Source: Entophlyctis helioformis (lineage: Eukaryota; Chytridiomycota; Chytridiomycetes; Chytridiales; Chytriomycetaceae). Taken from it: a stretch of DNA of 64,000 bases. Below the pieces are notes generated by a model. It ran no database searches. It worked only from the letters and a program-made list of their open reading frames with translations, and had not been told where the DNA came from. Below, in pieces: positions 49,819 to 56,571 of this stretch. A program made the position numbers and the translations under genes. Numbering within the stretch: the stretch's first letter is position 1; every line of letters begins with the position of its first letter. The stretch covers positions 59,202 to 123,201 of the forward strand of contig JAHLKH010000067.1 of the NCBI GenBank assembly GCA_025526915.1, written 5' to 3'.

Positions 49819-52800
49819 TCAAAGTTGGTAGTCAAACAAGTCACTGTGTGGGATGCAGGTCAAGTGACTTGAGGGCAGGCTGTCTGCGTGCTGGTCGCTG
49901 CTGGACGACGGATGGACCGTGTCTTGAACGCTGCTGTACAGCACGTCTTGAATACCACAGGACGGCAGGCTGATCTGGTCCCATGAGGCCACATGCGACT
50001 TGAAGTGTTTCCGCGTTTGAGGCTGTGGGACAACAGGCGGAGCATTTCGTGCACGCAGCTGGATGGAGATATGCATTGCCTCGATGTCTGCAAGGTACTC
50101 TGGCGTGGCTGGATTGCTGTCGGCTTTGGTGTGCGTCAAGTAGAGCGGCCGGTGTCCAAAGAGCAGATGCCACAGTGCGACCATTCCAATGTTGGTGGCT
50201 CCAAGCACGTCTCGGTGGTAGACGGTCGTGCATGGTATGCACTCGTAGCGTCGCAGGTTGGTGCGGTTCTCGTATGGGATCCTCTGCTTGCACTGCGGGC
50301 ACATCTGGCTGGTCAGGTTCTCGTTGCAGCGGTAGATCTGTGTGTGTGTGTGTGTGTGTGTGTGTGTGTGTGTGTGTGTGTGTGTGGTGTGTGTGTGTGT
50401 GTGTGTGTGTGTGTGTGTGTGTGTGTGTGTGTGTGTGTGGTCAGTTGGTGCACAGATGGATGGATGGATGGATGGACAGCGTGGCATCAGACGCACAAAG
50501 GCATATCCAGACGACCGCAGATGCCTGATGAGAAACCTCTCAAACACAGCGTGCCGGCCACCTTGACCTGTAAAGTCGATGCCAAATGCCCAGACAATGG
50601 GAATGTCCTTCTCTGTCGACTTGTCACAGCGGCCTTGAGACGCAGCAGATGCGCGCTCTCCAGTGGTCGAGCCTGCCAGATTCATGATGCCCTCAAGAGC
50701 GTTTCCGCGATCAGACGTGCGGCTGCTGCGCATGGTGAACCGCTTGGCCTTGACCTTCTGTGGAATGCCATGTCATGCCATGCCATCCAGTGCAATCAGC
50801 AGGCGATCAAGCAGTATGGCGGCCATGTCAATGGGCATACAGAAACAGGGAAAACGTACCCGTGCATTCAGGAATGGCGTGCAGTACGCATGGCAGCGCA
50901 GATCCCAAAAGGCTCTCTCGCCTGCTGTGGCGTTTGGATCGGCATGCTTTGCTGTCTTGAATGCGATGGCCGCCTGGATGTCGGTTGCCTTGGCATATCG
51001 ATTGTTGAGCCTGGCGCAAGAGGCAGGCACTGTGAGTTGATCTGGTCAAGAGTGCGCGTGGCAGAGTCATTGCATGCATACCACCGCTGAAAGTCACGCT
51101 CAGCTTGAAACATGCCAGAGGAGAGCACGTAGTTGGACTCGAGCTTATACGAAAAGTCCCTGAGATCAACCAAGATGCTGGATGCGCCATACAGGTACCG
51201 CTGGCCCCAATCAAAGCTGACAACGCGAACAGTCTGGTAGCCTTGGTCAGTGAACAGATTGTTGGCGTTGATGATGTCGCGCAGTCGCTGTGAGGCGTAA
51301 AAGTTGCGCTTGCCCTGTCATGCCATGGCATGAGTGAGGAATGTGCAATGCATGTGCACCAATGCGCGAGTTTAGCATGCAAGTGGCTTACAGGATTGGG
51401 CGTGTATGGCTTGGCGGCTGACGGGTTGGCTGGATTGGCAGCTGTGGATGGCATGTCAGTCGGTGTGGACAACAAGTGCGCGTCTGGATTGGCACAGCAA
51501 CTCACATTCGCCGTTAATGTAATCGGGCTCGCCATCAGCCTCGTCAACATCATCAGCAACCCACGGCTGCTCGCCTGAAGACATCAGATTGGAGTATGCA
51601 GATCAAGGCGGCAGTCAGAATCCATGTGTGCACCATCGCATTCAAGCACGCCACATACAGCAAGGTGACTCTGGACGGTTTGTGCGGCAGTCCAGTGCCA
51701 GCTGGTAGATGCTGTATCCATCCGTCATGATGCTGCCAAGTAGGATCGCCTTGGCTGGTCTTGCTGGACGCACAGCATCAATCGCAGCCTTGATATGCTT
51801 CTCGCGCTCCTTGCCATCCAGACCCTGCTCGTCAGCCTCTCGCGTCGCCTTGGCTGTGGCCTTGGCAACCGCGTCCATCTCATCTTTGGCTTCTGAAGGT
51901 GTCTGGAAGCGACCTTTCTTGGGGCGGAGACCTGGGAGAAGGATGTCAAAGATGGAAACCTCGCGACTTGCGCTGAATGCTTTCCTGATATCCTCATTGG
52001 GCAACGCAAGAGCTGACTTGGCATCTTTGTAGCCTTGGACAAAAGTGCAGAGTAAGCATCAAATTGTGTACACATGGCATATACAGGCAGTGCGACCAAC
52101 CGAGTGCAGCCAGAAGCTGTAGTCTCAATGCCTGCAAAGCAGGATCCTGATTGCCACGGATGCGCTCATCCTTTGTCCTCATCACCGCCAGAAAGAGCGT
52201 CGTCTCAGTGATGAGGACAAATGGATCACGGCCTGCAGGCTGGGGACACAACTTGAGGGATGAGCCTGCGAGATCACACAACTGCTTGAACTTGCCGGCC
52301 TCTGACAGCGACTTGTTGCGCACGACCGCCGTGAGCCTGTGCAGTGCTTGTGGGATCTCGACAACGCGTCCGTCTTGTCTGGTTGACAGTGGCGTGCCAG
52401 ACGTGGCATCCCCGGTGGCTGTATCCATTGCCTTGGCAAATTCCGCTGCCTTGTCAGCAGATATACCAGGAATCAGTCGGTGGATTGCCCAGTCAATGAG
52501 CATCGACTGGTGGGTCATGAAGTGCACAGCAAGCATGCCACAGATGCCCCGTGCAAGGTTGCCATAGATGTCGTTCCGAGCAGCTGCACACAAACTGTCG
52601 TCAAGCCTGCCAGGCAAAACGGCATGCATTGTGCTTGCGTCCATGTGCACAATGGCTGACAGCAATGAGCCGGCCTGCGTCGCGTCCATCTTGGCTGCCT
52701 GCGCCACACCAGCCCGCATCTTGGTCATGCTGTCCCGGATCATCTGCTGTGTCCATTCGCGGTTGATGATCATCTGCATGACCGTCACGATCCACGAGTG

Positions 52801-55800: not shown

Positions 55801-56571
55801 TGAGGTCGGTATCACCACTGATGACGACGACCGGCACATTGCTGTCAAGAAAGGCGCGTGAGCCATGGATTGGAGAGGCATGCAGAAGATCCAACCAACC
55901 TTGCTTCGCGCACGCGGCATGCAATGCAAACATCCGCCTCATTTTTACAAAGGCACACAGACGACCCTTCCCCAAAGTATCCAAGAAGACCCCCAATGGC
56001 CCCACAGATTGCCGCCTTACGCTCGCATGTCAATGGAAACGCCCACTGGAGTGACTGGATCTCGTCCCTGGAAGGGCACTCAGTCAGCACGGCATGCAAA
56101 TCAACAACAGCAAGTGGCATACTTTGTGAGCCTGTTGCCTTTCTGGTCTGCTTTTCGCTTGGCCACCATTGTCTGGATCGACAATGCTGCTTCCAAATTT
56201 ACCCGTGCCCGCTCAGTGCGGACAGCCTTGATATTGGTGTTGAGAAGCGAGCCATCAACATGGAGCCGGACTATGTGGAGCTTTCCAATCGATGCTGCGA
56301 GGCTGGCAATGAGCGGCTCGAGTGTCGGCGTCCAGTTTTCCTCTGGCTGTGCCAGCAGTATTGGTGCTGCTTTGTAGATATCGCCGGCAAAAAGACTGAG
56401 AACGTCCACATGCACAACACACTGGATGGGCGGACGCTCTGTGTTGTGCTGCTGCAGTGTTTGAGGGGGCTGTACCACGACCTGAATTGCACCCGAGAGA
56501 AGGGTTGTGGGATCAAGGGTTTTGCTACCACCTGCTTTGTCGATGGGAGGAGTCGCGCCGACGACTCCCAT
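49819..56571 (-). CDS. FEN1/XPG-type PIN nuclease joined to TnpB/Fanzor-like RuvC and zinc ribbon
   Basis: Long multi-exon minus-strand locus. 5' part: MGVVGATPP start, VVHVDVLSLFAGDIYKAAP, KLHIVRLHVDGSLL, KNEADVCIA (about 55930), VPVVVISGDTDLIF (about 55810) and ATFDLPEILDICRL, the spacing of FEN1/XPG acidic residues, then a helical region (IG-IVTAAKCIMACIRFEATW). The middle is mostly helical and unrecognised. 3' part: LGSIMTDGYSIYQLALDCR, VRVVSFDWGQRYLYGAS (RuvC I Asp near 51209), DIPIVWAFGIDFTGQGGRH and the zinc ribbon CNENLTSQMCPQCKQ ... YECIPCTTVYHRDVLGATNI (RuvC III Asp 50209-50211), typical of TnpB/Fanzor. At least a dozen introns by eye. Several frame changes, so it may be a decaying element. 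Treating both halves as one gene is inference; it would be roughly 1,800 residues. Confidence 0.6.
50339..50439. repeat. (TG)n microsatellite in an intron
   Basis: About 50 TG units, interrupted once by GG at about 50386. On the coding (minus) strand it reads as a (CA)n tract running directly into the acceptor CACAG|ATCTACCGC that opens the zinc-ribbon exon. A short GGAT tetranucleotide run (about 50455-50475) follows. Confidence 0.95.

Follow-up and report, generated by a model that had tools for sequence, protein, structure and literature searches.

We analysed a 64,000-nucleotide stretch (hereafter the window) of contig JAHLKH010000067.1 from the chytrid Entophlyctis helioformis, in which a first-pass annotation, made from the letters alone, had described a FEN1/XPG-type nuclease and a TnpB/Fanzor-like effector within one minus-strand locus. 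What lies there is a single member of a large family of DNA transposons, occupying 49601-56962 on the minus strand (Table 1). Its large gene, for which models comprise about 1,750-2,100 codons, is predicted to encode an EXO1/FEN1-type nuclease domain at the N-terminus, a long middle part and a Fanzor1-like nuclease at the C-terminus. All of the motifs quoted in the annotation (VHVDV, LHVDG, NEADVCIA, ISGDTD, SFDWGQRYLYGA, CPQC...CIPC and HRDVLGATNI) were located in minus-strand frames, and its coding span stands, the reading beginning with MGVVG at 56571 and reaching a stop at 49819. However, the element is wider than that span, and what had been overlooked is that it belongs to a high-copy transposon family with inverted-repeat ends, of which the window copy is a decayed member.

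Gene structure and the two nuclease domains

Exact sharing of introns between predicted gene models was low (2-5 per pair, 6 pairs), and the gene predictor's models put introns across frame shifts. Splice sites kept between copies were therefore used instead. In the upstream part of the gene seven introns are conserved: those beginning at 56122 and 55899 in copy L023 (L013 lacks the stretch that holds them), and those beginning at 55610, 55221, 54028, 53790 and 53566 in both L023 and L013, where the position of one acceptor varies slightly. Intron 55221-55150 keeps GTAAGT...CAACAG in the window copy and in both of these copies, which also keep 54028-53946, 53790-53727 and 53566-53498 within the middle part. 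Model introns at 55775, 54307, 54142, 53390 and 52100 are unconserved and partly cover frame-damaged places in the window copy. Between this copy and L023, codon-position counts favour third positions in most exons, not in all. Further downstream, exons 51314-51082, 51010-50860, 50757-50497 and 50337-49819 can be joined into an uninterrupted frame that covers RuvC-I, RuvC-II, the zinc ribbon and RuvC-III, and their length changes among copies are mostly zero or multiples of three. The (CA)n tract at 50496-50338 is intronic, the annotated protein P0004 being spliced identically there. Several copies are frame-shifted, for example in the RuvC-I exon (L014, L017, L026, L028), and an internal stop is absent from the TDG exon to the spliced end in 4 of 21 copies (the window copy, L009, L024 and L025).

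Table 1. Features of the transposon copy in the window, in the direction of transcription
Feature	Positions	Strand	Remarks
Whole transposon copy	49601..56962	-	7,362 bp; 3' boundary common to other copies; no target duplication here
5' terminal inverted repeat GGCCCGGTTCTCATACCATTACCCCTGG	56935..56962	-	78 genome matches with <=3 mismatches, 43 exact; reversed-pattern control 0
First coding exon, MGVVG start, VHVDV, LHVDG (predicted FEN/EXO1 domain)	56123..56571	-	annotated P0015 and P0017 begin alike
Exon with NEADVCIA (predicted FEN/EXO1 domain)	55900..56067	-	introns 56122-56068 and 55899-55842 kept in L023
Exon region with GDTDL, NDYF	55611..55841	-	frame change near 55770 here; relative P0015 reads through
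Exon with helices after the FEN core	55222..55524	-	following intron 55221-55150
Middle part, several exons, domain unrecognised	52101..55149	-	coding similarity between copies; frame changes near 53440 and 53330
Exon with TDG motif (GSIMTDGYSI), WED-like	51659..52033	-	TDG is a Fanzor1 WED feature (PMC10711439)
RuvC-I exon VVSFDWGQRYLYGAS	51082..51314	-	GT and AG kept in 17/20 other copies
Exon between RuvC-I and RuvC-II	50860..51010	-	GT and AG kept in 18/20 other copies
Exon toward RuvC-II region	50497..50757	-	GT and AG kept in 19/20 other copies
Intron with (CA)n tract	50338..50496	-	P0004 spliced across
Last exon: relocated glutamate (NENLTSQMC), C4 zinc ribbon, HRDVLGATNI, stop	49819..50337	-	PF07282 E 9.6e-10; PDB 9b0l E 2.5e-6
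Conserved 3' untranslated region, candidate guide-RNA source	49601..49818	-	alignment of 18 copies; no folding excess
3' terminal inverted repeat	49601..49627	-	166 genome matches, 25-base pattern, <=3 mismatches; reversed-pattern control 0

Judged by its motifs and profile matches, the C-terminal domain is homologous to the RuvC and zinc-ribbon nuclease of TnpB and Fanzor proteins, in agreement with the first-pass annotation. When the genome (29.57 Mb, 482 contigs) was searched with the PF07282 profile, 205 candidates were found, of which 150 were scored and all 150 matched. The listed rows lie over the family cut-off and thus the zinc ribbon in the window is no chance match. NCBIfam guided_TnpB was matched by five of five members (best 3.5e-8, under its cut-off). 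A protein search returned three metagenome relatives (E 5e-7 to 2e-5), and with these added to the profile the best PDB match was the TnpB-like protein L79 (9b0l, E 2.5e-6), which aligns at the relocated glutamate and is the best solved relative of the part from RuvC-II to RuvC-III. We take L79 to be a viral Fanzor whose 520-residue chain, unlike the probable fused protein of the element, presumably lacks a FEN-like domain.

Fanzors are described by the motif D-X(125-275)-[TS][TS]xx-C4-RD (PMC3627910), by a DPG at RuvC-I that is near-exclusive to them, by a glutamate six residues before the zinc ribbon and, in Fanzor1, by a TDG in the WED domain (PMC10711439). In the element the glutamate precedes the first zinc-ribbon cysteine by six residues (E-NLTSQM-C in the five members of A2) and is aligned with that of L79. 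The [TS][TS]xx, C4 zinc ribbon and RD order is found in A2 as TSQM-CPQC...C..C...HRD, and a putative TDG, recognised at the level of the motif, as MTDG, RTDG or KTDG in intact C-terminal models. DLG stands at RuvC-I in the metagenome relatives P0012 and P0013. As in the Fanzor1 proteins of DNA transposons (PMC3627910, PMC10711439, PMC10432273), a TnpB relative lies in an inverted-repeat element, and Fanzor elements without a visible transposase are known. The element differs in its DWG at RuvC-I, its copy number (at least 150) and its additional FEN/EXO1 domain and long middle part, whereas Fanzor1 proteins reach ~800 residues (PMC10711439). Three JGI metagenome proteins from outside Entophlyctis (P0011, P0012, P0013), all on short contigs, carry TDG or TNG, DLG, NEYLTSQMCP and YHRD.

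The N-terminal half needed separate proof, because Pfam yielded no worthwhile match to the window's XPG pieces. An EXO1/FEN1-type 5' nuclease fold is predicted for it, in line with the FEN1-type identity first proposed. The model of P0014 (moderate model confidence) has a FEN fold, with EXO1 and FEN1 topping both the Foldseek and the VIA-align lists. Of the acidic active-site series of XPG/Rad2, the six Asp columns are invariant in 7/7 sequences and the Glu of EAD is present in 6/7. The domain resembles EXO1, FEN1 and XPG nucleases in predicted fold and in the order of acidic residues, but shares only 10-19% identity with them (Foldseek rows) and is, in this mobile element, probably joined to a Fanzor-like part. 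Profile A1 of the XPG region returned no FEN entry from the PDB sequences, and single-sequence PDB searches with either half gave nothing useful. The middle part, already described as lacking a recognised domain, has no Pfam match over cut-off.

Copies, ends and uneven divergence

The genome contains at least 150 zinc-ribbon copies, and a search with the middle domain likewise gave at least 150 matches (181 candidates, 150 scored). The N-terminal domain was matched 119 times by a window-type query and 244 times by one taken from another subfamily, counts in which a single copy may yield two or three matches. Twenty copies were read (5.7-9.9 kb each). By tblastn, 18 of them (all except L012 and L019) contain middle and RuvC-I pieces, and 10 contain XPG pieces inside the stretch read. 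A further four (L009, L010, L011, L024) have XPG matches farther upstream on the same strand, giving 14/20. Of the six remaining, one (L012) carries an internal deletion and three (L016, L019, L020) run into the end of a contig; the other two are L025 and L027. The order of the two nuclease halves seen at the window recurs in divergent copies within this genome. Annotated E. helioformis proteins (BC831DRAFT names) match the family closely; at least 15 were found, hypothetical proteins of 168-397 aa. Long upstream stretches are common to some copies, and one of these resembles a retrotransposon integrase by its motif. No relatives were found on viral contigs, plasmid comparison gave no matches, Rfam had no match in the window, and a protein search with the whole gene model of the window copy found nothing among 8000 candidates scored.

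On one side, homology among copies stops at window position 49601 in most of them; on the opposite side it stops at 56962. The terminal inverted repeats found there are imperfect, with 19 of the first 23 bases identical between the two ends. Flanks were fetched for 20 pairs of listed ends, and exact direct repeats of at least 8 bp touch both ends in 10 of them (C24, C6, C138, C199, C102, C66, C219, C294, C7, C176), the chance of such a repeat being ~2e-5 per pair. In another four (C18, C436, C67 plus strand, C35) the two repeats differ at one base. The flanks of L012 are those of C436, and L023 has a 9-bp direct repeat offset by two bases. In 8 of the 10 exact-repeat pairs a single unit encloses the XPG domain together with the middle or zinc ribbon, the exceptions being C199 (a short copy) and C219. 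A second type of 3' end, ~47 bp longer, was represented by its pattern at 86 places, and no 5' end partner was found for it. L012, C436:7860-8911 and C199:20580-22748 are short copies with internal deletions in which both ends are retained, L012 also retaining the zinc-ribbon exon and 3' region. These are much like the ghost loci of S. punctatus (PMC10432273). In the subfamily of L018, L021 and L095, well over 1 kb separates the 5' end from the nuclease start, and between L018 and L021 this stretch is 94% conserved, against 79% in the part that follows.

Identity to the window copy, compared for 17 copies (truncated L019 left out), is uneven along the element. In 16 of the 17 it is 37-76% in bins 53400-52101. 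Values are higher further along: 74-92% for the RuvC-I exon, mostly 90-100% for introns, 89-95% for the zinc-ribbon part and 83-93% for the 3' untranslated region, whereas the last coding part varies (60-92%; three copies could not be compared). Alignments with the window copy break at 51512 in five copies (L009, L016, L017, L021, L028), which are divergent upstream and ~88-91% identical from there onward. This contrast between the 3' and N-terminal parts would be accounted for if a 3' cassette were shuffled or converted. A second anomaly concerns the introns within 51505-50758: across 17 copies (that of the window and 16 others) they differ by 0.056-0.092 per site, far less than the 0.295 measured at synonymous sites of the RuvC-I exon beside them.

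One polypeptide or two genes

It is likely that both halves form one polypeptide, because the seven conserved introns and coding similarity cross the join between them. Similarity between copies continues through the middle part, introns are kept on both sides of the join, and in L023 the frame continues across the intron that follows the FEN helices. Among annotated proteins, P0018 links these helices to the region that comes next, and P0001 links TDG to RuvC. The same region bears on an alternative, that the transposon holds two neighbouring genes, one FEN/EXO1-like and one Fanzor-like, transcribed apart or as alternative messages. The annotation, which holds separate fragments only (168-397 aa), would fit such an arrangement, as would P0015, which stops shortly past the FEN helices at the place where the window copy and L013 have an extra base. 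However, coding similarity and kept introns extend beyond the point at which P0015 stops, the gaps separating coding stretches are of intron size, and both P0018 and the frame of L023 run across the join, so that two genes appear distinctly improbable. We place the probability of the fusion, taken together with the anatomy of FEN/EXO1, middle and Fanzor1-like parts and excluding any mechanism, at about 0.78.

Several observations weigh against this fused, two-nuclease transposon. Past the FEN helices, the frame is lost at the join in the window copy, L013 and annotated P0015; the first two have one extra base relative to L023 just past the join intron, where P0015 ends, and no annotated protein spanning both halves was found among the matches listed. 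The window copy also changes frame near 55770, 53440 and 53330 (by eye against L023 and L013), and its own frame is broken. Six of the 20 pairs of ends (C10, C22, C141, C60, C342, C139) have no clear target duplication and neither has the window copy; inverted repeats combined with a fixed-length 8-bp duplication, typical of DNA transposons, are seen in the family, whereas the window copy has the inverted repeats only. Of the profile searches that the first-pass annotation had proposed, that for the zinc ribbon succeeded, whereas XPG_I_2 matched P0015, P0016 and P0014 (E 0.0038, 0.014 and 0.038) under its curated 24.2-bit cut-off in every case. Structure prediction, also proposed, returned a FEN fold for P0014, whereas the AlphaFold model of the contiguous RuvC-zinc-ribbon frame reached a pLDDT of only 36 and was not used. 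RuvC-I reads DWG instead of DPG in the five members of A2. Lastly, the 3' region folds no better than shuffles (z -1.52 to +0.09 in 6 copies). The interpretation given in the first pass is partly supported.

In the literature searched, partly in excerpt and with most subscription papers and preprints outside it, no description was found of a Fanzor joined to a flap or XPG nuclease. Within that literature the pairing, a Fanzor-like transposon with a predicted new N-terminal nuclease, appears to be new.

Guidance and mobility

By kinship with TnpB and Fanzor nucleases, RNA guidance is an evenly balanced prospect. Across 18 copies, conservation of the 3' untranslated region is strong, which a guide RNA would require, but only one of 41 predicted pairs within it shows two-sided change. 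In the most likely mode of action, the C-terminal part would cut DNA at a site selected by RNA from the element's 3' end; the FEN/EXO1 part would trim or resect the 5' ends, and through repair the element would be copied back or into the cut. Fanzor elements that have inverted repeats yet lack a transposase have been described, in which cutting was suggested to promote copying via repair (PMC10432273), and an EXO1/FEN-type module would fit the end-processing step of such copying. That the FEN/EXO1 part processes ends during transposition is a tentative suggestion, which we hold at slightly below even odds. A bolder and quite improbable extension is a self-sufficient transposon, in which one protein cuts under RNA guidance and resects through its own EXO1/FEN module, with homologous repair then inserting a copy of the element, or of its 3' cassette alone, at the cut. 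Homing-like copying of this kind would explain both the size of the family and why the 3' part is far more alike between copies than the N-terminal half.

Pfam recognised neither a separate transposase nor any other gene in the element, and no DDE transposase, the middle part being beyond structural modelling. The protein might itself be the transposase, its RuvC (RNase H-like) fold or its unrecognised middle domain binding the inverted repeats and moving the element without a guide RNA, while the FEN part removes flaps at the joints. The inverted repeats with an 8-bp target duplication, the lack of another recognised gene, the 5' ends inspected in C100, C11 and C86, which belong to the same family, and the 3' region without folding excess are all consistent with this. 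However, the relocated glutamate, TDG and zinc ribbon typify RNA-guided nucleases (PMC10711439), and a DDE motif was not found, though the middle lay beyond the structural test; we consider an own transposase rather unlikely. Alternatively, a transposase encoded elsewhere could move the elements in trans, leaving the two-nuclease protein as an accessory or retention factor. Help in trans has been proposed for Fanzor elements of S. punctatus that have inverted repeats and no transposase (PMC10432273), and remnants of KDZ transposases are present in this genome (4 matches). Among the three unexplained 5' ends read (1-2 kb each), no element combined these ends with another transposase, and movement in trans is likewise a doubtful option. 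The KDZ matches lie at C334, C271 and C396 and most carry internal stops. A hAT search gave no match in any control genome either and is uninformative on the absence of hAT.

Academ elements are comparable in being DNA transposons with an added nuclease, which in AcademX we presume to be XPG-like. AcademX differs in its target duplications of 3-4 bp (PMC10045372), against 8 bp here, and no DDE transposase was recognised in our element. As to what Fanzors do for the elements in which they reside, the retention of a repair-type 5' nuclease beside a Fanzor-like cutter in subfamilies that have diverged points to a possible division of labour, first the cut and then the processing of ends. If the fusion is true, the family would represent a natural cutter of the RNA-guided type with a built-in end-processing module, present in at least 150 copies in one genome.

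Two host genes lie beside the element in the window: one for an RF-1-domain protein at 48668-49225 on the minus strand (PF00472, E 2.5e-9), and one for a NUBPL-type iron-transfer P-loop NTPase at 58265-58758 on the plus strand (PF10609, E 3.2e-11).
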